Assembly: GCA_023260975.1 (NCBI GenBank)
Contig: JALQTK010000001.1
Location: 91,852 to 155,851, forward strand
From: Pseudidiomarina sp.
GTDB taxonomy: Bacteria; Pseudomonadota; Gammaproteobacteria; Enterobacterales; Alteromonadaceae
DNA: 64,000 nucleotides
Direction: 5' to 3'
The first letter of the stretch is position 1, and every line of letters begins with the position of its first letter. The notes beneath the pieces were generated by a model. That model had not been told where the DNA came from. It worked only from the letters and a program-made list of their open reading frames with translations, and searched no databases. The translations under genes and the position numbers were made by a program. Below are positions 1 through 40,478 of this stretch, piece after piece.

Positions 1-361
1 GCGGTTCGGATAGAGCTGGCAAATAGCGCAATGCATAGGGTTCAACACGCACTCGAATAGTCTCCCACCAGCTCGCCATAGTATCGCTGTAGCGACTGAT
101 ATCTGTTTCAGTTAGATCATCATTTATAATGAGCAGCCGTAACTCGGCTAAATGGGCTCGATAAATTGGTAGTTGGGTTTGTGCGTGCCAACGATGAAGT
201 TCACTGATACTGGCACTGACCTCATCATCTAATGTTCCAGATAACGCCACATAATCAGCTAGTTTCCATGTAATAAAAGTATCTGCGAAGCGGTATCCGA
301 TGCGGTTGGAACAGCCCACAATCACCAACAGTGAAAGTACGATAACTGCCAGTCGCTGCAT
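1..361 (-). CDS. Lipoprotein of DUF6279 type, C-terminus cut off by window edge
   Basis: The frame is open from an ATG at 361 to the window edge, giving 120 residues. It starts MQRLAVIVLSLLVIVGC, a short hydrophobic signal ending in a lipobox with the acylated Cys at residue 17, so it should be a lipid-anchored envelope protein. The mature start (NRIGYRFADTFITWKLADYV) resembles DUF6279 lipoproteins, whose function is unknown. It lies 34 bases after the LytTR regulator gene in the same direction and could be co-transcribed with it. The family name is recognised from memory. Confidence 0.65.
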   Translation of the reverse strand, partial: MQRLAVIVLSLLVIVGCSNRIGYRFADTFITWKLADYVALSGTLDDEVSASISELHRWHAQTQLPIYRAHLAELRLLIINDDLTETDISRYSDTMASWWETIRVRVEPYALRYLPALSEP

Positions 362-395
362 CATTACCCCTACCCTTTGGTTCATGTCGATGTGA

Positions 396-2302: not shown

Positions 2303-2456
2303 TTTTGCTACTTTGCCGCCATGAACACTTTATCGCTTCAGTATAACCATTCGAATTACCACTGTATTGCGCTTTATCGCACCTATCCTGCTATATAGCG
2401 TGAGCTTGCCATGCTAGCATACGGTAATTTAATTTTGTCTTAGCACCGAGGTGTTC

Positions 2457-4223
2457 ATGCTGCATTATTCCGTTGCTATTGCCGATCACGGCGCGCATTT
2501 ATTTCAAGTCACCATGACCATTCCAAGCCAATCCACCCGTGGTCATATTTTACGCCTGCCCGCATGGCTTCCGGGCAGCTATATGATTCGAGATTTTGCG
2601 CGGCATATCATTGATTTCACAGTCACTTCCGGACAACAGCCGCTGGCCTATCAGTGCCTCGATAAACAAACGTGGCAGCTAGCCGCCAACACTGCGCCGG
2701 TACTAATTCAATATCGCGTGTATGCCTATGACCTATCAGTTCGCAGTGCCTATTTAGAGCGAGATTTTGCCTTCTTTAACCCAACCAGCTTGTGTCTCAG
2801 TGTCGATGAACATCAGCACCATCGGTGTCAGCTTGAGATTGCCTGCCCGGTCGGCTGGCAATTGGCAACCGGTTTACCGCGTCTAACTGGCGCTAACTAC
2901 GAGGGTGGCAGTTTCCATGCGGATAATTATCAGCACCTGATTGATCATCCAGTGCTCATGGGCAACTTAACCATTTACAATTTTAACGTCGCTGGCATTC
3001 CCCACGCCTTAGTGCTGGCTGGACGACATGATGCCGATTGTCCGCGCATCTGCGCTGACCTGGAGCGTATTTGCGCCGAACAAATAGCCATGTTTGGCAA
3101 TCAACCACCGTTCAACCAGTATTTATTCTTAACCATGGTGGTTGGCCGCGGTTTCGGCGGCCTCGAGCATGCTAATTCAACTGCACTTATTTGCAGTCGA
3201 AAAGACCTAATCCATCGCAATAAGGCGACTATCGATAATGACTATCGGGTGTTTTTAAGTTTATGCAGCCATGAATATTTTCATAGTTGGAACGTTAAAA
3301 CGCTTAAACCCAAACTATTTTTGCCTTATCAACTTGAAGCTGAGCAATACACCCCGCAATTATGGTTCTATGAGGGCTTTACCTCGTACTATGACGACTA
3401 CATGTTGCATCGTGCCGGGCTGCTAAGTGCAACTGCCTACTTGGCTATTGTCGGCGAAACCATCGCTAAAGTGCATCGTGGTCGCGGCCATTTGCGTCAA
3501 TCACTGGCTGAATCAAGTTTTTACGCCTGGACCAAATACTACAAGCAAGACGAAAACTCACCCAATGTTATTGTCAGTTACTATGCCAAAGGTGGTTTGC
3601 TGGCCCTATGTATTGATCTCAAGTTACGTTTAGTATCACAGCATCAGTTGAACTTGGCCGATGTCATGGCGGCATACTGGCAGCAATTGGGACAACCATT
3701 GCTGGGTACCGACGATGATAGTTTCGTAAACTTTATCCGCCAACAGTACGAGTATCATGATATTGCTGATTTCATTACCACCGCCACCAGCACCACCGAG
3801 CAACTACCATTGACCGACTTATTGGCGCAGTTCGGTATCAGTACCAACCAGTGCGCAAGTACGGATGACAACAACTTCACTGGTAAAGTGGTTGCTTCGA
3901 GCTTGCCAGTATCGCTGGGGGCTAAATACCGCGCCACCGCCATGGGGCTTGAATTAACTCACGTTTATGAGGGAGAAGCAGCGGCACAGGCGCATTTAAG
4001 TGCCGGTGATCGAATCATTGCTATCGATTTTTTGCAAGCCAGCGATGCCACTGTGCGTGAGTTATTTGAGCGCTTCAAACCCGGACAGGCGGTCACCATT
4101 CATGCCTTCCATCGTGATGAATTACGCCAGCATACACTGTATTGGCAAGAGCCAGCAAAGCAGAGCGTGCAATTAACTGTTGTCGAACCAGAAAAACTTG
4201 CTGGCTGGCTTACGCTAAGCTAA
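2457..4223 (+). CDS. M61 glycyl-aminopeptidase-type metallopeptidase with PDZ domain
   Basis: About 588 residues. It has an N-terminal beta domain, a zinc peptidase domain with GGLEH (236-240) and the zinc motif HEYFHSWN (from residue 274), third ligand E308 in WFYEGF, and a PDZ domain near 480-570. These are the marks of family M61, whose best known member is the Sphingomonas glycyl aminopeptidase. Residue numbers count from the GTG at 2451. The ATG at 2457 is preferred because GAGG (2448-2451) sits five bases before it. No signal peptide is seen, so it is probably cytoplasmic. The 3' end overlaps the convergent pterin-synthase gene by 14 bases. Confidence 0.9.
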   Translation: MLHYSVAIADHGAHLFQVTMTIPSQSTRGHILRLPAWLPGSYMIRDFARHIIDFTVTSGQQPLAYQCLDKQTWQLAANTAPVLIQYRVYAYDLSVRSAYLERDFAFFNPTSLCLSVDEHQHHRCQLEIACPVGWQLATGLPRLTGANYEGGSFHADNYQHLIDHPVLMGNLTIYNFNVAGIPHALVLAGRHDADCPRICADLERICAEQIAMFGNQPPFNQYLFLTMVVGRGFGGLEHANSTALICSRKDLIHRNKATIDNDYRVFLSLCSHEYFHSWNVKTLKPKLFLPYQLEAEQYTPQLWFYEGFTSYYDDYMLHRAGLLSATAYLAIVGETIAKVHRGRGHLRQSLAESSFYAWTKYYKQDENSPNVIVSYYAKGGLLALCIDLKLRLVSQHQLNLADVMAAYWQQLGQPLLGTDDDSFVNFIRQQYEYHDIADFITTATSTTEQLPLTDLLAQFGISTNQCASTDDNNFTGKVVASSLPVSLGAKYRATAMGLELTHVYEGEAAAQAHLSAGDRIIAIDFLQASDATVRELFERFKPGQAVTIHAFHRDELRQHTLYWQEPAKQSVQLTVVEPEKLAGWLTLS

Positions 4224-5091
4224 TGGCGCCCTTACCAACCCCTTCAAAACCAGTCACCTGGATGTGCGCATGGGGGTGCTGTTGTTTAATTTGCTGAGCC
4301 AAATAAGTCGCAATACATTCCACCGTTGAATCAGTGGGGATTAAGTAGTTCTCAGCGCGTGGTATCGCTAGTTCGAACAAGCCTTGATCGGCTCGGTAAC
4401 TATAACCGACATGACTCTGTTCAGTAATCGCCTGCGCCTGGGCAGAGCGCTTTAATTGCGCTATCGGCACAACATCATCTGCTGAACCCAGATAAATATC
4501 GCGCCACGTAGACGCCCATTGCTGCTCTATCGCGGTATCACGCACACCGTCGCGCGTTACGTATAAACGCGAGCGATGACCATGGGCAATGCGCTGACAA
4601 TTACCATCATGTTTCTTTAGCCCATGGGTATAGTGATAATAGGCTCCGGGAATTTCCTCAGTACGCAACTGTAATTGAATCGCATCAACATTTTCCGGTA
4701 ACTCCCGTTTAATAACGGCACGCAAATAATCAATAATGGATGCCATAGTAACCGCCTCGGCATCGATAAAGGCAAATGCGTCAGCCGGGCAATACAGATG
4801 AATTGAACCACCGTGCGGGCGCATAAAATCAACCCACAGAGTGCCCTGTTGTTCGTTGTGGTTTACCCGCGTGTAGCTATGTTCTGTGGGTACTGCAAGC
4901 TTATGGTCGACCGCAGCATCGATAATCCGCTTTATCTGTTTTTTAACGCGGCCAAAATCTAATACCATCGACTGCTCGTTCAGTCGACCATCAAGAATAA
5001 TATCGACGATCCAGCTTTCACCTACCATGCCGCGCTCCGGACATAAATAGGAAAAATCAATAACGGTTAGATCGTTCACAAATAACTGCAT
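4210..5091 (-). CDS. Two-domain 6-carboxytetrahydropterin/6-pyruvoyl-tetrahydropterin synthase family protein
   Basis: At 293 residues it is about twice the length of QueD. It contains two tandem PTPS-like domains, roughly 1-140 and 141-293. The second domain carries the zinc and catalytic signature: H156 in YHYTHGL, C165 in GNCQRI, H170 and H172 in HGH, and a late E283 in GFEG. The first domain has VGES (23-26) where HGH should be and no equivalent Cys, but keeps a VDHK motif (D62-H63) like the catalytic Asp-His pair. I do not see that pair in the second domain. QueD makes the queuosine precursor 6-carboxytetrahydropterin. This two-domain form may do the same or act on a related pterin. It overlaps the M61 gene at its 3' end. 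Confidence 0.8.
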   Translation of the reverse strand: MQLFVNDLTVIDFSYLCPERGMVGESWIVDIILDGRLNEQSMVLDFGRVKKQIKRIIDAAVDHKLAVPTEHSYTRVNHNEQQGTLWVDFMRPHGGSIHLYCPADAFAFIDAEAVTMASIIDYLRAVIKRELPENVDAIQLQLRTEEIPGAYYHYTHGLKKHDGNCQRIAHGHRSRLYVTRDGVRDTAIEQQWASTWRDIYLGSADDVVPIAQLKRSAQAQAITEQSHVGYSYRADQGLFELAIPRAENYLIPTDSTVECIATYLAQQIKQQHPHAHIQVTGFEGVGKGAISLA

Positions 5092-5158
5092 AAGATACTC
5101 AATAGTTAATCAATTAATGAAACAATACCAATGCGCTGCAGTATATCATTGCTTGCGC

Positions 5159-5803
5159 TTAAGCTATAACGCCAATCAAGCCAAACCATTCATATAATAA
5201 CCAACCACTAAGCAACAACAGAGCCATACCCATCAGCCGGTCGAGCCAGTGACTAATAGCCCATAACTTAGAATAGAACGGCTTCCAGGTGATCAACGTC
5301 GCCAGTAAACTGAACCACAGCGCGGTCGCAACCGCCATATATAGGCCGTAGCCTAACTTAATACTATTAGGTGTTGCTGGATCAATCACCGTCGAAAATA
5401 AAGTTAAGAAAAACAGCGTTGCTTTGACGTTTAAGCCATTGGTCAAAAATCCTACCCGAAACGCCTGCCAGTTACTGAGTTTAGCGGCTCGTGCGGGGTC
5501 CACGACCATGCTGCCACGCGGCTGACTTTGCAGTGCTTGCCATCCAAGCCAAGCCAAATAAACTGCGCCAACAACTAAAAAACTGGCATAAACCCATTGG
5601 TAGCGATGAATAACCAGCGCGATACCCAATAGTGAATAGGCCACATGCAATAAAATCCCGGTACCGATGCCGACACTTACCCAGCGGCCAATAGCGCCGC
5701 CATAAGCGAGGCTATATCGGGTAGTGACAGCAAAATCAGGGCCAGGGCTAGCCACCGCCAATAAATGCAATACCGCTATCGCTAAAAATTCGTTTAAATA
5801 CAT
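5159..5803 (-). CDS. LysE/RhtB-family amino-acid exporter
   Basis: 214 residues, almost entirely hydrophobic, with about six membrane segments. The N-terminal block SPGPDFAVTTRYSLAYG is the family hallmark (PGP motif followed by the conserved region of RhtB/LysE translocators). Members export amino acids or related small metabolites across the inner membrane. It is divergent from the LysR gene at 5877, and the shared spacer has a perfect dyad of LysR-box form, so export is probably induced through that regulator. The substrate cannot be read from the sequence. Confidence 0.92.
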   Translation of the reverse strand: MYLNEFLAIAVLHLLAVASPGPDFAVTTRYSLAYGGAIGRWVSVGIGTGILLHVAYSLLGIALVIHRYQWVYASFLVVGAVYLAWLGWQALQSQPRGSMVVDPARAAKLSNWQAFRVGFLTNGLNVKATLFFLTLFSTVIDPATPNSIKLGYGLYMAVATALWFSLLATLITWKPFYSKLWAISHWLDRLMGMALLLLSGWLLYEWFGLIGVIA

Positions 5804-5833
5804 TGCATCAGAACCCTAGTTGATTTACTTTTA

Positions 5834-5858
5834 GTTAATTCAGATTTACTTAATTAAC
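5834..5858. promoter_or_regulatory. Candidate LysR-type operator (GTTAATT-N11-AATTAAC)
   Basis: A perfect 7-bp inverted repeat with an 11-base spacer lies in the 73-base region between the divergent lysE-like and lysR genes. Spacing and position match the T-N11-A pattern of LysR-family binding sites. Binding by the adjacent regulator is inferred. Confidence 0.5.
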
Positions 5859-5876
5859 AGAATTTCGAGGCTTGCT

Positions 5877-6773
5877 ATGACCGTCAAACAACCGTCTCTC
5901 AACGCATTACGCGTATTTGCAGTTGCAGCTCATGCGCAATCGTTTAAACATGCCGCACAACAGCTGGGGGTCTCGCAATCAGCGATTACCCGCCAAGTTC
6001 AAACACTCGAACAGCAGCTTGGTACGCGCTTATTTCACCGCGATAATCGTGTACACGCTTTAACGCCAGCAGGACAAGCATTAGCTCCCGAATTACTGCG
6101 ACTGTTCCGAGCGCTAGAACATACCATTGATAGAGTCCGCGATATTGGTGATAGCGAATTAACGACCCTACGTTTAGCCTTGCCAGACAGCTTATTGCGC
6201 TGGTGGTTAGCTAGTCATATAAAAGATTTTACCGCTTTGTACCCGCACATACGCCTGCAGTTTAACACTGTTGCCATGTATCCGAATAGTAACGAAAAGG
6301 CCGATATCTGTAGCCATTTGCACCATGAGGTGATTGATTTAGCGGTCCATTATGGCCTGTTGAAAGATAAAAATATTCGCCAACAACGACTTTATACGCC
6401 AACAATTACTGCGGTTGCTCGGCAGCTTCCAAGCACTGATCAGGGCATACACTGGCTGGTGGACAGCCAACATTTAATCTGGCAGCAATTCAGCAAGCGC
6501 TTTCCGGCACTGACACAGCAAGGTGATATCCAGCAAGCACCTGAACAGACGCTGCTCGATTTGCTCGCGACCAGTTCTGCCCTATCGCTTACCGACACGC
6601 TGTTTCTTAATCATCCGCAATTGCGTGGGTTGCAACAGGCCAAGCAATGGTCAATTGAGCTGCCAGAGGCAATTTATCTCAGCTGTAAAGAACGTAGCCG
6701 CCAGCCGGTGGCCTTGGTAGCCTTCAGCAAATGGCTAGAAAGCCGCATAACTAGTCAACGTAATAGCCAATGA
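5877..6773 (+). CDS. LysR-family transcriptional regulator
   Basis: 298 residues, a normal LysR length. The N-terminal winged helix-turn-helix (about 8-65) contains LNALRVFAVAAHAQSF and AAQQLGVSQSAITRQVQTLE, matching the family consensus closely. The effector domain (about 95-290) is a type-2 periplasmic-binding fold. Its gene is divergent from the LysE-type exporter, the common layout for a regulator that controls its neighbour and itself. The ligand is probably the exporter's substrate or a precursor; this is inferred from context only. Confidence 0.93.
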   Translation: MTVKQPSLNALRVFAVAAHAQSFKHAAQQLGVSQSAITRQVQTLEQQLGTRLFHRDNRVHALTPAGQALAPELLRLFRALEHTIDRVRDIGDSELTTLRLALPDSLLRWWLASHIKDFTALYPHIRLQFNTVAMYPNSNEKADICSHLHHEVIDLAVHYGLLKDKNIRQQRLYTPTITAVARQLPSTDQGIHWLVDSQHLIWQQFSKRFPALTQQGDIQQAPEQTLLDLLATSSALSLTDTLFLNHPQLRGLQQAKQWSIELPEAIYLSCKERSRQPVALVAFSKWLESRITSQRNSQ

Positions 6774-6827
6774 GGACTAGAAAAACCTCAGAAAATCAGC
6801 GCATAATGCCAGCATAGTGAATTTCTA

Positions 6828-8306
6828 GTGAGCACCGGCAGTGTCATGACAGACTATCAGGTAATTATCGTCGGCAGTGGCTTTGGTGGACAAGCCGCCG
6901 CCATCGAACTGATCAAGCAGCAGCAAAACGATTTTTTGATACTGGAGCGCCGCGACTTTATGGGCGGCACCTGGGTGCAGAACAGTTATCCTGGCGCTGC
7001 CGTTGATGTGCAGTCGCCACTTTATTCGTTGTCAGCAGTGCCATACGACTGGTCACAAATGTATGCTCACCGTGATGAACTGCAAGCCTACACCGATTAT
7101 ATTATCGAGCACTTCAGATTACGGCAAAAAACTCGCTTAAATAGCACCGTTACAGCGATGCGCTGGAATGCTGAGCATTGTCATTGGCAGCTTGAAATTA
7201 ATGGCTGTGAGCAGCTAACCGCGCGCTTTGTCATTAATGCCTCCGGCCCCTTAAGTACGCCGGTGATCCCAGAATTCCCCGGTCGTGATAGTTTTCAAGG
7301 TGCTAGTTTTCACACCAATAATTGGGATCACAACGTTTCACTCGAAGGTAAACGCGTCGCCATTATTGGTAGCGGTGCCAGTGCAGCTCAGGTTATTCCA
7401 GCGATTGTTGATAGCGTGACTGAACTACATATATTCCAGCGCTCGCCGCACTGGGTGGTAAAACGCCGTGACTATGTATTTAAGCCCTGGCAGCGGCGAA
7501 TTTTGCGAACAAAATGGGGCTATCGCCTGCTCCGCAACAGCATTTATTTAGCTCTCGAGCTGCGCGTACTGGGCTTTAAATATTCCAAACTACTCTTGCA
7601 ACTATTGGCTGGCAACGAAGCGCGGCGGCTGATTAAGCAACAAATTAGCGACCCGGTACTGCGCCAAAAGGTTACCCCCGACTTTACCATCGGTTGTAAA
7701 CGCGTGATTATCTCGAATACTCTCTATCCAGCCTACTGTCGTGAACATGTTCAGGTACATGATTGCCATGATGGCATCGCGGCTATAACTCCGAGCGGCA
7801 TTGTGACCCAATCGGGGCAACAGGTTGAACTGGATATTATTGTCTATTCGACTGGTTTTGATGCCACTGATGGCATGATTTCCTATCCGGTGATCGGAGA
7901 GCACGGCCGACTGTTAGCCGATTTTTGGCAGGATTATCCACGCGCCTATCTCGGCACCACGGTACCGTATTTCCCCAATCTGTTCATTGTTACTGGGCCT
8001 AATACGGGTATTGGTCATACCTCAGCATTAGTAGTGATTGAAGCGCAATTACAATACATTATGCGTGCCATGGCGGCGGTATCGAGCGCCGCTAAACGCG
8101 CAATTGTGGTGAAACCCGAAGCAGAGCAACGCTATACTGACCATATTCATGCTGAAATGCGTAAAACGGTTTGGCATTGGGGTGGCTGTAACAGCTGGTA
8201 CAAAAGTAAAAGCGGTAAAGTAATTGCTATATTTCCCGGTTTTAGCCTCACATTTAAACGCTGGACACGAAATTTCAAGGCCGCTAACCATTATTTTATA
8301 GATTAA
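6828..8306 (+). CDS. Flavin-dependent Baeyer-Villiger-type monooxygenase
   Basis: 492 residues from the GTG at 6828; an ATG at 6846 is an equally good start. The FAD-binding motif GSGFGG is at 16-21. The Baeyer-Villiger fingerprint FxGxxxHxxxWD is exact at 156-167 (FQGASFHTNNWD). The NADPH motif GSGASAAQ follows. Enzymes of this class use FAD, NADPH and O2 to turn ketones into esters or lactones. The substrate is unknown. No signal peptide is present. The stop codon shares a TTAA tetranucleotide with the stop of the convergent methyltransferase gene. Confidence 0.9.
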   Translation: MSTGSVMTDYQVIIVGSGFGGQAAAIELIKQQQNDFLILERRDFMGGTWVQNSYPGAAVDVQSPLYSLSAVPYDWSQMYAHRDELQAYTDYIIEHFRLRQKTRLNSTVTAMRWNAEHCHWQLEINGCEQLTARFVINASGPLSTPVIPEFPGRDSFQGASFHTNNWDHNVSLEGKRVAIIGSGASAAQVIPAIVDSVTELHIFQRSPHWVVKRRDYVFKPWQRRILRTKWGYRLLRNSIYLALELRVLGFKYSKLLLQLLAGNEARRLIKQQISDPVLRQKVTPDFTIGCKRVIISNTLYPAYCREHVQVHDCHDGIAAITPSGIVTQSGQQVELDIIVYSTGFDATDGMISYPVIGEHGRLLADFWQDYPRAYLGTTVPYFPNLFIVTGPNTGIGHTSALVVIEAQLQYIMRAMAAVSSAAKRAIVVKPEAEQRYTDHIHAEMRKTVWHWGGCNSWYKSKSGKVIAIFPGFSLTFKRWTRNFKAANHYFID

Positions 8307-9421
8307 TGTCTGCGCGCGATAATTAGTGTGTTTCGCGGGCTATCTGAAACCTCACAGAACTGCTGCAAGCGAACTTGATAGCCGCACTGTTGAAGAAACA
8401 ACGCTCTATCGAGCAGTAACCAGTATTCCAATGGCTGACGAAATAACTGGCGAATCTGATCCAATGCGCGAACCAGCAGTAAGCGCTGCTTTGCCTGCTC
8501 AACAAACGTAGGTAATTGCCTAGACTGAGGCTGAGGTATACGCTGCTGCGCGCATGCCCAGTTAATGAAGTCTTTCAATTCACCGCTAAATTGTTGTTTT
8601 GCCAATGATGGTAATGGTTGATAGTGGTCGCAGCCAGTCACTTCAGTGCGATATAACTCAAACACTAAACGCCATAATTGTTCGATATTTCGCAATCGCT
8701 GAGTGCGTTGTCCTGCGGTGATAAATTGTTGAACAGCCAGTTTTAAATCGGCTTTGCTTAAGCGTAACAGTGATTGCCCAGCGATAGCGGATAATGGCTG
8801 GTAGTCCTCTGTAGCCTGAAGATGATAACAGCATGGCGCGACGAAGAGCTCGCAGCAACCACTCTGAGTCACTTGCTCTAGTAGTCGCCGATGCAGATCA
8901 CCGCACGCATGTAAGGCAACAACAGCGCTATCAGTCGGTAAACTAGCGGGCGCTAGTTGCATGACATTAACCTGATTAAATCGCTGCGAAAGCTTAAAAC
9001 GCTCGGCTAAGGCTTGTCCTTGAGCACATAAATTCGCTTGCCATTCAAGACTGGTTACCGGCAACTCGCGCTGAAAACTCAATAAACGCCCTAAATGCCC
9101 CTTGCCTGCGCACCATTCAACGACCGGATTTTGGCTGGTGAAAGACGCTAAAAAGCCATCTATTTGGGCTAATTTTCGACCCGTTATACCGTTACTTAAC
9201 CAAAACGGTCTAGCCAGCCGAACCGTTTTATCGGTAACCATCGGCTGCAGCGGATTGGGTAATTGGCTTAATTGGTGGTGCAGCTGCTGCTGAATTTGTT
9301 CCGCTGAATTGGGCCATGGCCATTGCCTGGTAGCGAATGGATTAAATTGCCAATAGTGTTGATGCTGGAGTAAAAGTTGGTCGTAGTGCTCGAAGTATTG
9401 CCGCAGCGTATCTGTTGTCAT
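8303..9421 (-). CDS. SAM-dependent methyltransferase (Methyltransf_32-like)
   Basis: 372 residues. The SAM-binding glycine motif is VVEWCAGKGHLGRLL near residue 100. Later come ALHACGDLHRRLLE and VAPCCYH, a combination I associate with the Methyltransf_32 (PF13679) family. The N-terminal 90 and C-terminal 120 residues are specific to this subgroup. The substrate is unknown; relatives act on RNA or protein. It lies just downstream of the tRNA-Gly/Cys/Leu cluster on the same strand, 37 bases past tRNA-Leu, with no clear terminator between, so some read-through is possible. Confidence 0.8.
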   Translation of the reverse strand: MTTDTLRQYFEHYDQLLLQHQHYWQFNPFATRQWPWPNSAEQIQQQLHHQLSQLPNPLQPMVTDKTVRLARPFWLSNGITGRKLAQIDGFLASFTSQNPVVEWCAGKGHLGRLLSFQRELPVTSLEWQANLCAQGQALAERFKLSQRFNQVNVMQLAPASLPTDSAVVALHACGDLHRRLLEQVTQSGCCELFVAPCCYHLQATEDYQPLSAIAGQSLLRLSKADLKLAVQQFITAGQRTQRLRNIEQLWRLVFELYRTEVTGCDHYQPLPSLAKQQFSGELKDFINWACAQQRIPQPQSRQLPTFVEQAKQRLLLVRALDQIRQLFRQPLEYWLLLDRALFLQQCGYQVRLQQFCEVSDSPRNTLIIARRH

Positions 9422-9457
9422 AGGTGGGCAAAACGCATAGAGAAACGATTAGATATG

Positions 9458-9544
9458 TGGTGCCCGGGGCCGGACTCGAACCGGCACGACCGTTAAGTCG
9501 AGGGATTTTAAATCCCTTGTGTCTACCTATTTCACCACCCGGGC
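9458..9544 (-). tRNA. leuZ: tRNA-Leu (UAA)
   Basis: 87 nt including an encoded CCA. Acceptor GCCCGGG pairs with CCCGGGC, a long class II variable arm is present, and the anticodon loop in GGGATTTAAAATCCC gives UAA. The T arm is GGTTCGAGTCC. It is third in the Gly-Cys-Leu cluster, matching glyW-cysT-leuZ beside pgsA in E. coli. Confidence 0.97.
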
Positions 9545-9580
9545 AAAACCTGAGTATATTATTGTGCAGCGTTAGCGTGA

Positions 9581-9654
9581 TGGAGGCGAGTCCCGGAGTC
9601 GAACCGAGGTACACGGATTTGCAATCCGCTGCATAGCCACTCTGCCAACCCGCC
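9581..9654 (-). tRNA. cysT: tRNA-Cys (GCA)
   Basis: 74 nt including CCA. Acceptor GGCGGGT pairs with ACTCGCC (one G-U pair). The anticodon stem-loop CGGATTGCAAATCCG gives GCA, and the T arm has GGTTCGACTCC. It lies between tRNA-Gly and tRNA-Leu. Confidence 0.97.
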
Positions 9655-9662
9655 ATCGCGTT

Positions 9663-9737
9663 TGGAGCGGGAAACGAGATTCGAACTCGCGACCCCAACC
9701 TTGGCAAGGTTGTGCTCTACCACTGAGCTATTCCCGC
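9663..9737 (-). tRNA. glyW: tRNA-Gly (GCC)
   Basis: 75 nt including CCA. Acceptor GCGGGAA pairs with TTCCCGC. The anticodon stem-loop CAACCTTGCCAAGGTTG gives GCC. The D loop is one base shorter than in E. coli glyW. It is first in the three-tRNA transcript; a strong promoter-like sequence precedes it. Confidence 0.97.
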
Positions 9738-9742
9738 TTTGC

Positions 9743-9800
9743 ATTTAACTGCCACTAGAGCGCTACTCCAGTGGCTCGCCATTCTACATGGCAGTTAAAT
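9743..9800. repeat. 58-bp element with perfect 12-bp inverted ends and an inner dyad
   Basis: ATTTAACTGCCA (9743-9754) and TGGCAGTTAAAT (9789-9800) are exact inverted copies. An inner pair, GCCACT (9751-9756) and AGTGGC (9770-9775), is nested inside. The distal arm lies between the -35 and -10 elements of the tRNA promoter, so the full dyad exists only at DNA level and could be an operator. Confidence 0.7.
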
Positions 9801-32511: not shown

Positions 32512-32588
32512 CGGCATGTGGCGCAGCTTGGTAGCGCACTGTCATGGGGTGTCAGGGGTCGGAGGTTCAAATCCTCTCATGCCGACCA
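32512..32588 (+). tRNA. proL: tRNA-Pro (GGG)
   Basis: 77 nt including CCA. Acceptor CGGCATG pairs with CATGCCG. The loop ATGGGGT gives anticodon GGG. The T-T mismatch in the anticodon stem (CTGTC/GTCAG) also occurs in E. coli proL as I recall it, so it is not a defect. It follows yejM as in E. coli. Confidence 0.96.
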
Positions 32589-32654: not shown

Positions 32655-33059
32655 TTATTTCTTGGTATATACCGCGGCTGCAGAACCTGACTTAGTCACT
32701 TGATACGGCGTTTTTGCTTGCATCTTATCGCAGATGTCAGCACTCTCACCGGCATTAACAAAGCCTTTGTTGCCAACGCTTTCACAACTATCTCTTTTCA
32801 CTTTTTGCCACTTTAGTGCTTTTAGCTTTGGATTTTTAGCAATTTCAGACTCCATTTTGCTAATAGCTTCATCACACTGTTTGTGATACGAAGCATCTTT
32901 GGTGCGAGCTTCATATAACAAGCCAACCTTCTGTGGGCCTTGTACTGAAACCCAACCACATAAACGTGAGCCAGACTGCGCTTCAGCTGGCGCGGGTGTT
33001 AGTGACAACATAGCTGCTGCTACCAGTGATAAAGCTAAGTTTGCTTTTAAGGTATTCAT
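32655..33059 (-). CDS. Small exported cysteine-containing protein, unknown function
   Basis: 134 residues from the ATG at 33059 (MNTLKANLALSLVAAAMLSL), which gives a clean signal peptide cut after the AEA near residue 28. The mature protein of about 105 residues is basic and has four Cys (in RLCGWV, KQCDEA, DSCESV, ADICDK), which could make two disulfides in the periplasm or outside. I do not recognise a family. It is 137 bases downstream of the secretin gene on the same strand and could be a late part of that unit, although the spacer may hold its own promoter. Confidence 0.75.
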   Translation of the reverse strand: MNTLKANLALSLVAAAMLSLTPAPAEAQSGSRLCGWVSVQGPQKVGLLYEARTKDASYHKQCDEAISKMESEIAKNPKLKALKWQKVKRDSCESVGNKGFVNAGESADICDKMQAKTPYQVTKSGSAAAVYTKK

Positions 33060-33196
33060 CGTATTAAAACTCCAGTGAATGGATAAGATAACCATAGGTA
33101 ATTATCACCTGATGGGCGCGCCTTATCCGATTTGCGCGCGGTAAATTGATTCAATCAGTGCGACTGCCAGACCCGGTTCAATCTGGCTAGTTGCTC

Positions 33197-35056
33197 TTAG
33201 TAGTAGAGAAACCTTAGTGCTTCTTTCAGACGCTCACCGGTTGAATGCATGCGATCCCAGCGTTCCAGAGATACATCGCTCTGACGAAACTCACGATAGT
33301 ATTCTTCTTTTTGCAGATGCGTCAGTATTGCCTCGATATTTGCCGGTGTTCTCTCAGTGAAGCCAAAGCGCTCGAGCAACTGCTCCATCCGGCTACTCAT
33401 CGGGTCATTATCGCTAGGCGCTGCATCAGATAACTGCACCGGCTCTCTCGGGGTAACCAGAATTAGTACCGAACGCTGCAATTCGTTGGTCCTTTTATTA
33501 GAGAACAGGTACTGAATACCTGGAATATTCTGCAATCCCGGTACCCCGTCACGGGTGCTGGACGATGATTTTTCGCTCAAACCGCTCAGTACTAGCGTAT
33601 CACCCAGGTTCATCACGACATTTGCATTCGCTGTAGTTTCCCCAATCTCAATCTGATACGCCACTCGCGGATTATCATTGCTGGCGTTTAACGATGTCCG
33701 CTGTGCATCTACCTTGAGCTGTACCTGGCCCTGCGACAAAAAGTTAGGGGTGACGGACAACTTAATACCGAAGCGTTTTTCTAGCGGAACAATGGTGGTA
33801 CCACCTTCTTGGCTGGCGGAAACAACGCCAGCACTCAAGTTGGTGCCAGAGAAGAATTCCGAGGTTAAACCTTCTATGGCCGCTAAGGTCGGACGCGCGA
33901 GTACCTCGTTGAGCGAGTTGTTAGCGTTAGCAATATTTAGTGAATAAGATAGCGCCGGAATGGTTACTGCCCGGGTAATCGAGGTACTTGACGATGAATC
34001 ATCGTTGGAACTAGTAATCCGTGAATAGGCAGGTAGATTGCCGGTAACCGAGCCAAGCTGCATGGTGAGAGCATTCAGCAGGTTTACACCGCGCGATGTT
34101 GACATGAGTTCCTGAGTCGATAGCAACACCACATCAACCAATAGCATACGTGGTGTCTCGGCTGATACTCTTGCTGATGGTTGCGGTATAGAAGTCATGT
34201 GGTCGTCTAACTCGCTATCCTGGCTATCTTCTTGGTCAAACAGCCCATCGGTCATTGCCGGCGACAAATCTGGAACCGAGAAAGCTTGCGCTAACAGGAG
34301 CGAGCGATCGGTGTAGAAAGTCTTCCACTGCGCCAAGCGGCGATCGATACGCTCGAGCTCTGGGGTGTTTCCATACTGTTCAATTAACGCTGCTCGCACC
34401 CACTCGGCGCGCGCGAAATTGCCGCAAGATCCGTAAACCGGAATACTCGACCGCAAAAATTCCAGCGGCGGTTTAGCGGATACCTTTAGATACTGATTCG
34501 CCATAGCGCAGGCTGTTTTCGCGTCGCCGCTAAGATAGGACGCAATCATCAAACCGCTAATGGACGGTGCACTTTCTGGGGTTAGTAGCAGTGCATCGGC
34601 GAACGCTTGTTTGGAAAAGTCGTAGCGCTTCAGGTCCATATAGGCGAGGCCCATAAATTCCAGCGCAATCCAATTACTCGGATCAATCCGCAGTGATTGC
34701 TGATAGCCTTCTAGAGCAATCTCCGCCTTTTGCGTATCGCCGCGTAGCGCCTGTAAATGATAGACAAAGCCGTTCAAAAAATGCAGGTAGGCATTGCGTG
34801 GGTCTAGTTGCAGCGCCTCATTTACCGCCAACTGCGCCGGCGCTAGTTGCATTCGTTTGATAAAGCCAACAGCAACATTAACCTTGGTCAACATCTCAGA
34901 ATCGTTGACAGCACGAGGAATCAGCTCAACATGTTCCATCATTTCAACAAACGAGCGTGCTGGCATTTGTGCCACCGCGTTTGACGAACAAGTTAGCATC
35001 AATGAGCTGACAATGATCAGTCGATTCCGCCGTAATCCGTGTGCAAATGGTTTCAT
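33197..35056 (-). CDS. TPR-containing secretin (type II/III secretion system GspD/PilQ family)
   Basis: 619 residues. A signal peptide (about 1-30, ending SSNAVAQ) is followed by a TPR region (about 55-200, with ALQLDPRNAYLHFLNGFVYH and SLRIDPSNWIALEFMGLAYM), a low-complexity acidic linker (about 262-300), and a secretin domain (about 300-537). The domain contains TIVPLEKRFGIKLSVTPNFL and the signature VPGLQNIPGIQYLF at 505-518. A C-terminal helical tail of 80 residues is unusual. Secretins form outer-membrane multimeric pores. It is third in the BON/lectin/secretin operon, coupled by TAATG. No ATPase, inner-membrane platform or pilin gene is in the window. Confidence 0.85.
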   Translation of the reverse strand: MKPFAHGLRRNRLIIVSSLMLTCSSNAVAQMPARSFVEMMEHVELIPRAVNDSEMLTKVNVAVGFIKRMQLAPAQLAVNEALQLDPRNAYLHFLNGFVYHLQALRGDTQKAEIALEGYQQSLRIDPSNWIALEFMGLAYMDLKRYDFSKQAFADALLLTPESAPSISGLMIASYLSGDAKTACAMANQYLKVSAKPPLEFLRSSIPVYGSCGNFARAEWVRAALIEQYGNTPELERIDRRLAQWKTFYTDRSLLLAQAFSVPDLSPAMTDGLFDQEDSQDSELDDHMTSIPQPSARVSAETPRMLLVDVVLLSTQELMSTSRGVNLLNALTMQLGSVTGNLPAYSRITSSNDDSSSSTSITRAVTIPALSYSLNIANANNSLNEVLARPTLAAIEGLTSEFFSGTNLSAGVVSASQEGGTTIVPLEKRFGIKLSVTPNFLSQGQVQLKVDAQRTSLNASNDNPRVAYQIEIGETTANANVVMNLGDTLVLSGLSEKSSSSTRDGVPGLQNIPGIQYLFSNKRTNELQRSVLILVTPREPVQLSDAAPSDNDPMSSRMEQLLERFGFTERTPANIEAILTHLQKEEYYREFRQSDVSLERWDRMHSTGERLKEALRFLYY

Positions 35057-37845
35057 TAGCGTGGTACCGTCGAAGAAAAAGTAAGTTGATCGGTGCGCGA
35101 ACCTGAACGCCCTTGCATGCAGCCCAATTTTTGCCCAGGCGTCACGTTGTAAGTACCTGGACTGCCGCCATTACCGCCATAAGGACCAAATTTACGACCG
35201 GTGTTGGTATGGAATAGAATGCTATCGACCTCATCACCGGAGCGGTAGTCAACTCGGACCACGTATTCACCCGGCTGAAAGCGTACTTCTGCGGTATAAG
35301 GCGGCGACCCAAGTGAGCCGTGTGGTGGGCCCCAATTACCATTGGCGTATAGGAACGCCAGACCATCGAGCAAGCGCCCAGAACGCACGGCGAAACCTGT
35401 CACGTGTTGTCCTTGGCAGAAACGATAGTCGTCCCAGTAGGTACTGTTTTTTCGACCGATTTTTAGTAGTGCGCCGGTAAAAGGACGGCCATCGCGGCCT
35501 TCTCTCGCTTTGCCTCGAGACAGCCAATGGCCAAGTGCATCCTTATAGCCATATACACCGAACGCTTTTTGCAAATCGGGGTAACGGGCGACATACGATT
35601 TGACATCAAAATCAGCGCTGCCCATACGCCCCTCTTCAATACCCACCAAAATCCAGTGCAATAACACTCCAGAGGCGTCACTACCAAAGGCCAATGAATC
35701 CTGGTAGTTCTTCCTATAGAAGTCTGGGTCAAATTCGAGGGAACCTCGTAAGCCATTGGGAAATCCTGTGGTATCCCAATGTGCGACTAGGTCAATGTCA
35801 CTTTTTTCCTTCGGTTTTTTGTCAGATTTGGTGTCCTTTATGAACGGGTTTTTTATCGATTTATTGATTCGATTCTGCATGTAGTTGTAGGCATCGATAT
35901 CAAAATTATCGTAGTAATAATCCCAATCAAAGGTGCTGCGATCAAAGTGCGCATGGCTCATGTCTTGCGCTTTAGCGGTCGAACCCCCTGCTACGCTAAT
36001 AACCGCGTTAGTACCTGCGCTAATAAGTGCATTAGTACCGCCGGTCCAAGCACTGGTTGCGGCGTTAATCGATGATTGTGCTGCTTTGCGTGCTTGCTCT
36101 TTGGTCTGGTTAAATTCCTGTTGCGCAGCATTTCCCAGCTTATTCAGTGCAGCGGTCGCCTCACTGGCGGTATAGCCCTCGAGATCACTGAACTCACCAG
36201 CAATCTTGTTATAGGCGGCTTCCAGCTCTTTACCGATACAGCCTTGAATTTTCGACGGATCAACGTTAACAGCCGCGGCGCCATTAAACACGTCATCGAG
36301 TTTGGTCGTCACATTGAATGTCACCTCGGTGGAAATTTCAAACGGGTTGACACAACTCGCACTCACCGCAACTTTTATTTTGTCGCCGTTCAAACTCACT
36401 TCGACTTTCTGGCCACTAAAATTGCCCATTAAACCAACTTGCTGGGTGCTCGCACTTATAGCGGTGGTAGCTTGCATACTAAAATTAACCCGACCCAGCG
36501 GTCCCAGCTTAAGCGACAAGGACTGACCAACGTCACCGCGCAATCCGGCGAGACCGGCACTGGCCTGCATCCACCCCATGGTCTGCCCGAGTATATTGAC
36601 CTCACCACCAGCACTCAAATAAGGACCACCGTCGGCCAGCGGGCCCAGTAGCACGTAGTTAAAATACTTATTGTCATTGGGAAAGGGCTTGCTGCTATCA
36701 CCAAAGCGATATTCCGGTGGAGGATTTGGGTTTCTGAACTGCACTACCGATAGCGGTGTAAGCATATTCAATAAAGGATCTTTAAATTTATCGATACCGT
36801 TGATAAAGCCGCCGTATTTTGCCAAACGCTGATCTTTAGTCACCATAGCAACCATCATGTGCGCAGCATCTTCCATAGTAAAGCTCGCCGGCGTGGCCAT
36901 GCGGAACGAAAAGTCCAACAAATCGGCAGCACCCTCTGGGCTGAGCGGTGTCTGGAATTGAATGATGATTTTCTTATCCTCGGCACCTCTAAATAGCGCA
37001 TTGCCCTTATAACCAAAGGTCAGGCTGTTATTGATAAAGAAGGTCGCGTCGGTCAGTGTCATTGGCGGAAGAATTAATGGCAGACGCGCGTTGGGCGCAA
37101 ACTGGAACTCAATGAAGGCCTCTGGTTTGCTAGCATCTTCTGCTTTCTGCGCCATGGTGTTGCCCTGTGCCATCGCGCTAGCGCCGGCTCCTGCCATACC
37201 TGCTAAATCAGTCGGAATTGGCATAACTACGGCGGCGCGAAGCATCACTTCATTAGCCTTCACCCCGAAGGCTTCCATGGTTAGCTTGATGGGGCCGCCC
37301 AGGTTGGCGCGAGCAGCCAGCTGCACACCGCTAGAGAACGACAGCGTGTTGACATTGAAATAGTTATCACGCACCACCTTGCGTAGTGCCGCTGGCATTT
37401 TGATCTGGTCAAGTTGGAAATCGGTGGTAGAAATCGAGATAATGGGCGACCGCAAGGATGTCTCACCCATCACTTTTTGCACTTTTTCACCTAATAAACG
37501 TGGCATAGAGAGCGATTTGTCGACCACCAACAGCAGCGTTTGCTGGGTGCTACCACTGGTAAAAAAGTACAGTTGTAACGGCCCCGACTGAGTCGTATAG
37601 CAACCAGTGAGATTGCCACCACAGCTGGTTTTACCAAGATCGCTCACCATGCCCTGCAACTCGTCCTTGATACCGGCAATCGGCAGATTACCGAGGACTT
37701 TCTGCAAAGTCGGGCTTACATTGGGTGCATTTTGGGCCTCTGCAGGCAAACTCAAGCTCATCATGCCAAGCATTAAGATACTGCACGTAAGTGACCAAGA
37801 TTTAAGCGGCAATAAGCCAAACAGAGATGATTTGATTTTACTCAT
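35056..37845 (-). CDS. Large exported protein with C-terminal jacalin-like lectin domain
   Basis: 929 residues. The signal peptide ends at AEA near residue 37. Residues 40-520 are an unrecognised beta-rich region containing a Gly/Ala/Met-rich stretch (214-240) and a few Cys. Residues 540-620 are helical and Ala-rich. Two repeats of the NYxDL/AFG-HW-G-EGR type lie at 705-740 and 746-784. Residues 790-929 resemble a jacalin-related lectin (VTGFAVRSGRLLDGLAFLY, later FHTNTGRKFGPYGG). It is likely a carbohydrate-binding surface or secreted protein. It overlaps the BON gene (ATGA) and the secretin gene (TAATG), so it may be the substrate or a partner of that pore. Confidence 0.75.
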   Translation of the reverse strand: MSKIKSSLFGLLPLKSWSLTCSILMLGMMSLSLPAEAQNAPNVSPTLQKVLGNLPIAGIKDELQGMVSDLGKTSCGGNLTGCYTTQSGPLQLYFFTSGSTQQTLLLVVDKSLSMPRLLGEKVQKVMGETSLRSPIISISTTDFQLDQIKMPAALRKVVRDNYFNVNTLSFSSGVQLAARANLGGPIKLTMEAFGVKANEVMLRAAVVMPIPTDLAGMAGAGASAMAQGNTMAQKAEDASKPEAFIEFQFAPNARLPLILPPMTLTDATFFINNSLTFGYKGNALFRGAEDKKIIIQFQTPLSPEGAADLLDFSFRMATPASFTMEDAAHMMVAMVTKDQRLAKYGGFINGIDKFKDPLLNMLTPLSVVQFRNPNPPPEYRFGDSSKPFPNDNKYFNYVLLGPLADGGPYLSAGGEVNILGQTMGWMQASAGLAGLRGDVGQSLSLKLGPLGRVNFSMQATTAISASTQQVGLMGNFSGQKVEVSLNGDKIKVAVSASCVNPFEISTEVTFNVTTKLDDVFNGAAAVNVDPSKIQGCIGKELEAAYNKIAGEFSDLEGYTASEATAALNKLGNAAQQEFNQTKEQARKAAQSSINAATSAWTGGTNALISAGTNAVISVAGGSTAKAQDMSHAHFDRSTFDWDYYYDNFDIDAYNYMQNRINKSIKNPFIKDTKSDKKPKEKSDIDLVAHWDTTGFPNGLRGSLEFDPDFYRKNYQDSLAFGSDASGVLLHWILVGIEEGRMGSADFDVKSYVARYPDLQKAFGVYGYKDALGHWLSRGKAREGRDGRPFTGALLKIGRKNSTYWDDYRFCQGQHVTGFAVRSGRLLDGLAFLYANGNWGPPHGSLGSPPYTAEVRFQPGEYVVRVDYRSGDEVDSILFHTNTGRKFGPYGGNGGSPGTYNVTPGQKLGCMQGRSGSRTDQLTFSSTVPR

Positions 37846-38291
37846 GAGTGATTAATCTCGATGGACGATAGGTTAGTTGGGACAACTCGTGCAGCAGACT
37901 TAGACGAAATTAGCTGTCGATCGGGGGGGCTCGGCTGCCAATCTTCAGATGTCAGCGGTTGCAATTCGAGCGCATTATGTACCGCCTTGACACCTTCAAT
38001 AGTCTCGGCAAGGGTCTGCGCCGTTATTTGTTCAAGCTGAGTTTTTACCATGCCAGACAACAGCACCACGCCATAGAGCGATTCAACGGATATATTGCTT
38101 TTAGCCAACACATCATTTTGTGAAAAAAGCTGCTGGATAGTCATGGCTATCACATGGTCGTCGGCCTGCATGACAGCACCCGACCGATGTGGGTTGAGCG
38201 CAGCGGGTTGAGCACTGTTTACAGCACACCCGCTATTAATCAGCGCTGTAAAAGCTAAACTAACTGCAAAAGTGCCTGTTCGCATGCTCAT
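37842..38291 (-). CDS. BON-domain probable lipoprotein
   Basis: 149 residues. An N-terminal hydrophobic signal leads to a Cys at residue 22 (LINSGC), an imperfect lipobox. One BON domain follows (about 45-115), with NISVESLYGVVLLSGMVKTQ and TIEGVKAVHNALEL. BON domains occur in OsmY, in channel proteins and at the N-terminus of Tad-type secretins such as CpaC. Here it is a separate protein. It is the first gene of the operon with the lectin protein and the TPR-secretin, and could anchor or gate the pore. Confidence 0.82.
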   Translation of the reverse strand: MSMRTGTFAVSLAFTALINSGCAVNSAQPAALNPHRSGAVMQADDHVIAMTIQQLFSQNDVLAKSNISVESLYGVVLLSGMVKTQLEQITAQTLAETIEGVKAVHNALELQPLTSEDWQPSPPDRQLISSKSAARVVPTNLSSIEINHS

Positions 38292-38463: not shown

Positions 38464-39168
38464 GTGAGTAATCGAAATATGCCCGTACCTGTACCAACCA
38501 ATAATGAAATAATTCGAGTTGCGCTGGTGGATGATGACGTTGGCTTTCAAGCTGCTGTTGTTGGCGCACTCACTACAGCTGACGACATCCATCTAGTGTC
38601 GGTGTGCGGGACGCTGGCTGCAGGTATCAAGTTACTTGATGGTGAAGCGGTTGATATTCTTATCGTTGATTTGGGTTTGCCCGACGGCTCAGGAATCAAT
38701 TTGGTACAAAAGGCGAATAGTTGCTGGCCACAATGCAATATAATGGTAAGCACCACCTTTGCCGATGAAGTCAATGTCATGAAATGCCTCGAATCAGGCG
38801 CTACCGGTTATCTGCTCAAAGATAGTAGCCAGCAGAATTTGATTAATGAACTGCGGCATCTGCATGCGGGCGGCAGTCCAATTAGCCCCTTAATTGCTCG
38901 GCGACTACTGAGCCGCTTCCATGGTGATCAAAACGCCCCAAGCAAAGCAGCAACCGAGATAGATGATCAGCCATTGCTCTCAGCGCGAGAGCAGGAAGTG
39001 CTTGAGTTAATTACCAAAGGCTTTACCGCCAATGAAATTGCCAAACTGCTGTCGGTGTCGCACCATACTGTGCTGACGTTTGTGCGGCGTATTTACGCTA
39101 AACTTAAAGTAAATTCAAAAACCGAGGCCATTTATGAGGCTCGACTGCAGGGTATTCTTGATAACTAA
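38464..39168 (+). CDS. NarL/LuxR-family response regulator
   Basis: 234 residues from a GTG at 38464; an ATG at 38479 is the alternative. The receiver is complete: D23-D24, phosphoacceptor D69 in LIVDLGLPDGSG, and K119 in GYLLKD. The C-terminal LuxR helix-turn-helix (about 170-232) contains LSAREQEVLELITKG and AKLLSVSHHTVLTFVRRIY. The cognate kinase follows after 56 bases. The gene is divergent from the BON/lectin/secretin operon, and the spacer contains a strong palindrome, so it probably controls that operon. Confidence 0.94.
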   Translation: MSNRNMPVPVPTNNEIIRVALVDDDVGFQAAVVGALTTADDIHLVSVCGTLAAGIKLLDGEAVDILIVDLGLPDGSGINLVQKANSCWPQCNIMVSTTFADEVNVMKCLESGATGYLLKDSSQQNLINELRHLHAGGSPISPLIARRLLSRFHGDQNAPSKAATEIDDQPLLSAREQEVLELITKGFTANEIAKLLSVSHHTVLTFVRRIYAKLKVNSKTEAIYEARLQGILDN

Positions 39169-39224: not shown

Positions 39225-40478
39225 ATGCGTAATTTGCTTGCTCTTGCGCCTGCACCGATACTCGCTCAACAATTGCGTATGGTGATGAGTAATTTTCGCA
39301 GTACGATTGTTATTATTCCTGCCTGTTTTATTCTTTGGTTAACTCTCGAAAACCCGCAAAATCAGCTTGATCTCACACTATGGATGACTTGCACAATCTT
39401 GGCCAACATACTGTTACAAGCATACGGTTGGTATTATTTGAAACATGGTTTTGAGCCCAAATCCTTGCGCTCAAACGTCTACATGTACGCATTTTTGCAT
39501 AGCCTTGACGGTATTGCCTGGGGTTTGCTGAGCTGGATAATTATCAGTACCGTCAGCGAAACTGCGGTGATTATTATTATCGCAATTTTTGCTGGCATAC
39601 TGGGGGCTGGATTAGCCACCTTAAGCGCAATCCCGATTCTTTTTATCGCTTTTACTTTGCCACATACTTTGGCGATTACTGCTACATTGTGGAGCAGTGC
39701 TGTCTCGCTTTACCAAGCCATCGCCATCATCGCAGTACTTTATTTTATCTCATTGATAGCCCAAGCAATTAACAGCTCGAAAATAATTAAAAGCGCTATC
39801 AGCACGAAATTAGAACTGGAAAAAAGTAACCAGCGGTTGCGCGAAATAGAACGCTCGCAAACGTTGCAACAAGAACGCCAACGCCTCATGCAAGAAATGC
39901 ATGATGGCCTCGGTTCATCGCTACTGAGTGCGCTGCGGGTAGTAGAGAAAGGTAACATGGCAACTGATGAAGTCGCCCAAGTCCTCAAAGAATGTATTGA
40001 TGATTTAAAACTGGCAATTGACTCAATCGAGCCGGTCGATCAGGATTTGCTGCTATTACTTGCTACATTGCGTTTTCGTATTGGCACACGGCTGGAAAAT
40101 AGCGGTATTACCTTGCATTGGCATGTCGCCACTATTCCACCTTTGCAATGGCTTAATCCAAGCTGCTCATTGCATGTACTGCGAATATTACAAGAAGCTT
40201 TTACTAATATTATCAAGCATAGCGGTGCCAGCGAAGTTCGCTTATCAACACAGACTACCAGCAGCCATATCATTGTTGAGATAGCTGACAATGGCTGCGG
40301 TTTCGATGCTGAACAAACTTCAGCGGCGAGTGGCCGCGGTTTATTAAATCAGCGGCAGCGAGCCGCTGCCATTGGTGCTGAGGTGAATTGGCTTGCTCAA
40401 CAACGCGGCAGTGTCATGCAATTACGTTTACCGCTTGAACATTCGCTACTTCAACAAGCACCTGATCAATCGATTTAG
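39225..40478 (+). CDS. Membrane sensor histidine kinase (NarX/DegS-like, HisKA_3)
   Basis: 417 residues. About six hydrophobic segments (25-180) form a membrane module with little periplasmic mass. A coiled segment (190-220) leads to the HisKA_3 motif with H226 in LMQEMHDGLGSSLLS. The ATPase domain has LQEAFTNIIKHSGAS and DNGCGFDAEQ, then GRGLLNQRQRA. This pairs with NarL-type regulators, and the gene upstream is one. The signal is unknown but is likely within or near the membrane. Its stop shares TTAG with the convergent DUF2805 gene. Confidence 0.94.
   Translation: MRNLLALAPAPILAQQLRMVMSNFRSTIVIIPACFILWLTLENPQNQLDLTLWMTCTILANILLQAYGWYYLKHGFEPKSLRSNVYMYAFLHSLDGIAWGLLSWIIISTVSETAVIIIIAIFAGILGAGLATLSAIPILFIAFTLPHTLAITATLWSSAVSLYQAIAIIAVLYFISLIAQAINSSKIIKSAISTKLELEKSNQRLREIERSQTLQQERQRLMQEMHDGLGSSLLSALRVVEKGNMATDEVAQVLKECIDDLKLAIDSIEPVDQDLLLLLATLRFRIGTRLENSGITLHWHVATIPPLQWLNPSCSLHVLRILQEAFTNIIKHSGASEVRLSTQTTSSHIIVEIADNGCGFDAEQTSAASGRGLLNQRQRAAAIGAEVNWLAQQRGSVMQLRLPLEHSLLQQAPDQSI

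Follow-up and report, generated by a model that had tools for sequence, protein, structure and literature searches.

A TPR-secretin and its lectin-ended partner in Pseudidiomarina: a possible self-piloting secretin without a motor of its own

The window analysed here, a 64,000-nucleotide stretch of the genome of Pseudidiomarina sp. (GenBank assembly GCA_023260975.1, contig JALQTK010000001.1), contains a gene for a secretin of 619 residues (33197-35056) in which a tetratricopeptide repeat (TPR) domain is joined to the pore domain, and beside it a gene for an exported protein of 929 residues (35056-37845), called the cargo here, which ends in a jacalin-type lectin domain. The secretin belongs to a distinct clade of TPR-secretins, most of which adjoin a gene for one of a few partner proteins and carry a conserved C-terminal tail, with no match to the motor genes searched for nearby. 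We put at roughly one half the probability that it is a self-piloting secretin, with its TPR domain as a pilotin in cis, through which a Sec-exported partner is displayed or released independently of the motor of a type II secretion system (T2SS), a type IV pilus (T4P) or a tight adherence (Tad) system. Both genes lie on the minus strand, as does a gene for a BON-domain protein that precedes them, and the three are coupled by overlaps of ATGA at 37845-37842 (BON/cargo) and TAATG at 35058-35054 (cargo/secretin). This is the operon described in the first-pass annotation of this DNA, whose coordinates and lengths agree with ours and whose domain calls, a BON domain, a jacalin-ended exported protein and a TPR-secretin, are borne out by profile matches. 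Idiomarina sp. UBA6142 (L057; loci and genomes are given by our L and G numbers) shows the same types of overlap.

The pore domain of the secretin (residues 378-537, 33446-33925, minus strand) matches PF00263 with an E-value of 3.2e-28 and a score of 98.9 bits against a cut-off of 27.5, which places the protein in the secretin superfamily. No match to STN, Secretin_N, N0 or pil_N was found in front of this domain, and TPRs (residues ~70-165 by profile) stand where the N-terminal secretin domains would be. The source genome, a 1.9-Mb assembly that is 86.6% complete, has four further secretins on other contigs, in loci that we read as PilMNOPQ, Tad, MSHA-like and Gsp. Three of these secretins match such N-terminal domains, GspD matching both N0 and Secretin_N, while the MSHA-like one matches PF00263 alone. 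The whole TPR domain (residues 54-249, 34310-34897, minus strand) has 11 helices in the model, and a PilW-type model is the best-scoring NCBIfam TPR model for it; the PilW-type TPR is matched by 15 of 16 TPR-secretins, above any other TPR model, although in the window secretin the score for the PilF/PilW model TIGR02521 (34.1 bits) is far under the cut-off of 154. A lipobox-like match, as expected of a pilotin, is seen in six of the 14 TPR-secretins that are not of the cargo type; the pattern also matches one of the 20 cargo-type secretins (L073), there probably upstream of the true start.

Outside the Pfam secretin domain lies a conserved tail (residues 585-619, 33200-33304, minus strand) that ends in FLYY. 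In most members it follows the pattern [FY]REFRxGDV...RLxxxLxFLYY, and it ends in tyrosine or phenylalanine in 31 of 34 TPR-secretins. Across these 34 sequences the tail holds 3.06 bits per column, compared with 3.18 for the secretin domain and 1.28 for the linker, and the last four residues reach 3.45. In the report on the Tad secretin RcpA (CpaC), its last four residues are described as binding a groove of TadD, a lipoprotein pilotin with five TPRs and 11 helices, and as being essential for the ring (PMC10499894). The window secretin resembles this pair in its pore, for which RcpA (8odn) gives the top match among solved secretins (E 5.4e-14) with PilQ on a par (5.8e-14), in its 11-helix TPR domain and in having a short C-terminal tail such as that reported to be essential in RcpA. 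It differs in that the TPR domain is fused to the secretin, that there is no pil_N match and no CpaF, TadB or TadC match beside it, and that the tail is FLYY-ended and, in a weak model, helical.

Fusion of TPRs to a secretin is not in itself new, because there is a precedent in Akkermansia, where the PilQ protein Amuc_1098 is described as combining pilotin-like TPRs at its N terminus with a secretin domain at its C terminus (PMC4960237). The accessible part of that paper presents Amuc_1098 as a T4P secretin and mentions no lectin partner, unlike the proteins described here, and the corresponding model NF042912 matches them only weakly (eight of 16 members at E <=1e-5, best 4.7e-7, for a model whose cut-off is 750 bits). 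Among curated families the best secretin match of the window protein is T4P PilQ (TIGR02515) and the best TPR match PilF/PilW (TIGR02521), yet both scores fall far short of their cut-offs, no STN or Secretin_N is matched, and the PilMNOPQ-like locus of the source genome is separate. For PilQ the score is 73.9 bits against 284 and for MshL 52.8 against 250, which does not place the protein with the T4P secretins; likewise the type III secretion system (T3SS) secretin SctC reaches 40.6 bits against 238, the export apparatus itself having had no search. AlgK/AlgE, PgaA and BcsC likewise place a scaffold of periplasmic TPRs before a pore in the outer membrane, and curli export through CsgG needs no ATPase at the outer membrane. 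Those pores, unlike the present one, are beta-barrels or CsgG and not secretins; this is a resemblance only. A TPR-secretin with a lectin partner was not found among the open-access literature matches listed; subscription papers lay outside the search.

The cargo has a signal peptide, a core (residues ~40-560), a coiled stretch, a repeat region and the C-terminal jacalin domain. An alignment of 23 cargo sequences shows the core to be conserved, the coiled stretch to vary in length and the repeats to be of the form FDxxxY...YPDLQ...HW; in the window they cover residues 686-784 (35494-35790, minus strand) and take the form FDxxxY...YPDLQ...HWLxxGxxEGR. Repeats of the FDxxxY type (cargo residues ~686-792) are also found by themselves in other proteins from genomes of the window's family (L007, L009, L011). 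The jacalin domain (residues 796-921, 35083-35460, minus strand; PF01419, E 3.4e-14) carries the motifs YGGNGG and GXXXD, the latter as GSRTD. It is matched in 16 of the 23 aligned cargos, 13 of which have GXXXD, a sugar-binding motif described in PMC4059138. The modelled fold of the domain is of the griffithsin/ZG16 type (ZG16: Z 20.3, root-mean-square deviation 2.3, 138 residues aligned). With both the beta-prism fold and the GXXXD motif of jacalin-related lectins, the domain is predicted from sequence and model to be a sugar-binding lectin. For the core no curated family or solved relative was found. Five cargo members match the Senescence domain, with a best E-value of 0.019, and this match was not used. 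The 50 best matches each of Foldseek and VIA-align for the cargo model are filled by the jacalin domain, for which reason the core fold is not called new; against a viral library the model gave one match at E <=0.001. The gene is not always arranged as in the window: in L073 the jacalin domain is on a separate, overlapping gene, and in L079 (7723-9272) the cargo is broken up between frames, its jacalin part having an open reading frame (ORF) to itself.

A scan of a species-genome collection with six exact peptide patterns from the cargo, which is not a census, gave 24 related loci besides the window, mostly in records titled Burkholderiales. When the ORFs of these 25 loci were clustered by single-linkage BLAST, by which diverged families could be missed, only two gene families were present in at least five loci, those of the cargo and of the TPR-secretin; five ORFs for ABC-type ATPases made up a third cluster, which spans four loci. 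By six-frame hidden Markov model (HMM) search the two genes are adjacent in 16 of the 24 loci as well as in the window. The eight without an adjacent secretin (L064, L066, L068, L071, L072, L074, L077 and L080), of which L064, L068 and L077 sit on contigs of 4.0-4.5 kb, come from seven genomes, and six of these seven have a TPR-secretin elsewhere. Including L129 and L134 there are 19 cargo-secretin pairs, always in the same direction. Isolates with the pair are known from Limnobacter sp. MED105, Herminiimonas and Paucimonas lemoignei. A fixed three-gene order, implied by the first-pass annotation, was ruled out as the unit: the cargo comes first in 14 of the 19 pairs and the secretin in five, and what is conserved is the secretin with its partner in either order. 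In all, 20 of 21 cargo-bearing genomes have a TPR-secretin at E <=1e-25, which in G542 and G545 is of the type partnered by pentapeptide-repeat proteins. For comparison, in samples collected from the secretin side a TPR-secretin was present in 3 of 369 genomes of the class (E <=1e-40), in 7 of 48 genomes from another class and, within the phylum sample, in 11 of 398 (E <=1e-60), the class (369) and phylum counts being lower bounds from at most three scored candidates per genome.

The TPR-secretins form one clade in a tree of 61 secretin domains, where 36 of them are divided from 25 other secretins by a branch with support of 100/99. The tree leaves out L004, L135 and L136, which repeat other rows, and rows of fewer than 110 domain residues; the inner order of the non-TPR secretins was not used, because the tree program warned of long branches there. 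Within the clade, 20 cargo-type secretins lie on one side (97/100) with the pentapeptide type around them, L132 being counted as cargo type and L083 as pentapeptide type by sequence, since their partner sides are cut off. Grouping all pentapeptide-partnered TPR-secretins together was rejected (p-AU 0.0004, or 0.0005 without L083), from which it appears that within a single TPR-secretin clade the exporter stayed while the partner was exchanged. At 33 of 38 TPR-secretin loci the secretin adjoins a co-directional gene for a cargo (19), a pentapeptide-repeat protein (11) or a tectonin protein (3). Four of the remaining five (L083, L091, L093 and L132) are cut by contig ends, and L092 and L093, two of the 38, are end pieces of contigs from a single genome and probably belong to one gene. 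The fifth, L090 in G159, has an exported protein of 3251 residues (3-9755, minus strand), which follows the second TPR-secretin there. In L084 a ricin-B-lectin protein stands beside the TPR-secretin, and in L088 a B-lectin protein lies ~3 kb from it. In both pentapeptide loci tested, an SBP_bac_3-like exported protein follows the pentapeptide gene (L086 10852-11697, L131 6305-7207).

Eleven proteins of the source genome, named partly by our own reading, served as motor queries: PilB, PilC, PilM, the MSHA ATPase and platform protein, CpaF, TadB, TadC, a GspE fragment, GspC and a prepilin peptidase. In the window and 45 related loci, 707,658 bases in all, none of them gave a match (tblastn, E <=1e-3), although they found their own loci as a control, and none was matched in L145, L146 or L147. 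At these 46 loci no GspE, GspC or PilC-type platform gene was found encoded with the secretin, pseudopilins having had no search, and no CpaF, TadB or TadC. The earlier statement that no motor genes are nearby thus stands for the ATPase, platform and prepilin peptidase queries, while pilins and pseudopilins had no profile search; that no T2SS, T3SS, Tad or T4P locus is visible here is supported by the below-cut-off scores together with the lack of matches among the neighbours.

From these observations a sequence of steps may be proposed. The lectin protein and the secretin, to judge from their N-terminal signal-like sequences, would cross the inner membrane by Sec. The N-terminal TPR domain would do in cis what the TPR pilotins TadD and PilF do in trans and, by analogy with RcpA and TadD, the FLYY-ended tail may dock in the TPR groove, either of the same subunit or of a neighbour, and so lead to ring assembly. 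The ring would then pass or hold its dedicated partner, bringing the variable C-terminal lectin domain to the surface or the medium. No T2SS, T4P or Tad motor would take part; capture of surface sugars or folding outside the cell might pull the partner out.

It could instead be that the TPR-secretin forms an alternative ring in the outer membrane and that a T4P, T2SS or Tad motor, borrowed in trans, pushes its partner; we consider this distinctly unlikely. In its favour, PilB/PilC, Tad, MSHA-like and Gsp genes are present elsewhere in the source genome, T2SSF is matched in 30 of 32 carrier genomes, and in G749 GspL and T2SSF are on the contig of the TPR-secretin, ~21-27 kb away. These searches covered 32 of the 34 carriers, G170 and G320, with contig-end pieces only, being left out. 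In T2SS and T4P, the inner-membrane parts bind the secretin through N0, STN and Secretin_N, and none of these is matched in the window secretin. Nor is a complete T2SS or Tad locus elsewhere in the genome a constant companion of these genes, since GspL is found in 19 of the 32 carriers and missing in 13, RcpC is found in 14 (13 over the cut-off) and missing in 18, and seven (G159, G269, G491, G495, G531, G545 and G547) have neither. Two of these, G491 and G495, are assemblies of 100% completeness and 0% contamination with no T2SSF, GspL or RcpC match, PF00437 (T2SSE) having been searched in the window genome only; in each the one secretin match is the TPR-secretin, in a count of secretins per genome that covered nine genomes.

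An unlikely alternative, though less so, is that the partner is retained as a plug, cap or scaffold, either in the periplasm or across the pore, and that the exported substrate is another one, for instance a polysaccharide or an unlinked protein. The closeness of the gene pairs would suit subunits of one complex, and the cargo core is kept over ~500 residues, in contrast to the lectin end, which some cargos have and others do not. A passenger fits better with three partner families that share only export and, often, sugar-binding or repeat domains, and some genomes have two cargo genes per TPR-secretin (L057, L058, and L059 with L066), again as for a cargo rather than a fixed subunit. It seems very improbable that the pore works inward, with the lectin capturing glycans or other ligands and the TPR-secretin admitting them to the periplasm, much as HofQ/PilQ take in DNA. 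In its favour, the weaker matches of the secretin domain include HofQ models, some partners have sugar-binding domains and the SBP_bac_3 genes mentioned above would suit uptake. Against it, the ORF clusters present in at least five of the 25 loci, from which diverged families could be missing, include no conserved glycan-utilisation genes beside the cargo-type pair.

Several points weigh against the self-piloting export that we favour. The passage of the partner through the pore is conjectural, and the 19 cargo-secretin pairs are the window's own and those of genomes reached by way of the cargo, so their adjacency is no independent sample. An Arsukibacterium draft has a cargo and no TPR-secretin match at E <=1e-25, and seven of the 23 aligned cargos have no jacalin match. 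In fold searches PilF matches the TPR domain no better than generic TPRs do, for which reason the pilotin reading rests on the architecture. The secretin model is poor (mean predicted local distance difference test score 56) and gives no usable evidence on the contact between tail and groove. Three of the 34 tails, all of the tectonin type (L084, L085 and L146), are not aromatic-ended, nor is that of a more distant TPR-secretin on an Asticcacaulis plasmid, which also has no FLYY. The two genomes without T2SSF, G491 and G495, are themselves of the tectonin type with tails that have no FLYY end, and T2SSF is matched in every tested genome of the window's own type, where a motor in trans is thus possible. 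Motor independence is accordingly a possibility demonstrated for the clade; for the window's own type it would follow only by extension from these tectonin-type genomes.

The pair was probably acquired by gene transfer from a Burkholderiales-like donor, as indicated by its placement in the tree and the scarcity of the cargo in the window's genus and family. The window and L057, whose cargo is the closest relative (89% identity), fall inside a set of 14 tree rows (99/86), the rest of which are from records titled Burkholderiales, Betaproteobacteria or their genera, except for G550 (Gammaproteobacteria). The cargo is absent from four other genomes of the window's genus, and among 147 genomes of the family only the source genome has it in full. 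No plasmid match was found for the cargo; the secretin had 27, none over 80% of the query. The best is the distant TPR-secretin just mentioned (PF00263 80.9 bits; c1 model E 1.3e-46), on a 135-kb plasmid of Asticcacaulis sp. AND118 (L147 7620-12365), where two genes for exported proteins that match no family come after that of a probable-lipoprotein TPR-secretin and no motor match is nearby. The clade can thus be plasmid-borne, while the window's pair was not seen on plasmids.

The remaining genes around the pair appear to be local additions. The BON-domain exported protein (37842-38291, minus strand, 149 residues; PF04972, E 1.7e-13) had been annotated as a lipoprotein; the BON domain is clear, and the lipoprotein only probable, because in both the window and L057 the lipobox, INSGC, is non-canonical at -3. 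Its gene was ruled out as a core part of the system, the ortholog being present in these two loci alone by six-frame HMM search; L067 has a weakly similar BON protein ~7 kb away. In Tad-type CpaC the BON domain is part of the secretin. The Tad secretin of the source genome has no BON match. In L057 (3064-8654) the cargo gene is doubled in tandem between the BON and secretin genes, the second copy being without GXXXD. At the place of the window's BON gene, four Burkholderiales loci (L058 3896-4600, L060 6989-7741, L063 7034-7738 and L067 from 6974) have members of one gene family preceding the cargo, and the L058 member has PAS and winged-helix (Trans_reg_C) domains. Some 100 bases behind the secretin lies a gene for an exported protein of 146 residues (32655-33095, minus strand), overlooked earlier and probably a fourth, accessory member of the cluster. 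Its product matches a counterpart behind the L057 secretin at 66% over 96 residues and also resembles (E 8e-11) the N-terminal part of a 431-residue protein beside a distant TPR-secretin (L093 1153-2448). We infer that the BON and 146-residue proteins are lineage-specific accessories.

Divergent from the operon is a gene for a NarL/LuxR-type response regulator (38464-39168, plus strand), with an ortholog at the same place in L057, and adjoining it one for a HisKA_3-type sensor histidine kinase (39225-40478, plus strand), where L057 has a 409-residue ORF; this pair, too, had been overlooked earlier. From its position the response regulator is probably the regulator of the secretin operon. Directly behind the module, after the 146-residue gene, is a tRNA-Pro (ggg) gene (32512-32588, plus strand), possibly the insertion point of the transferred cluster.

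Taken as a whole, the first-pass interpretation is partly supported. Known secretins form the outer ring of machines with many parts, powered by cytoplasmic ATPases. A clade with its own pilotin-like domain and a dedicated partner, which in two complete genomes supplies the sole secretin and is accompanied by no T2SSF match, would suggest a secretin that works alone. More tentatively, these proteins may form a separate motor-less export route of diderms, in which a self-piloting TPR-secretin able to be the only secretin of a cell is combined with an interchangeable partner, whether jacalin, tectonin, ricin-lectin or pentapeptide-repeat, and has spread by gene transfer. If so, the pair would offer a two-gene model for secretin assembly, gating and the energy of protein export across the outer membrane, and possibly a small display system for lectins.

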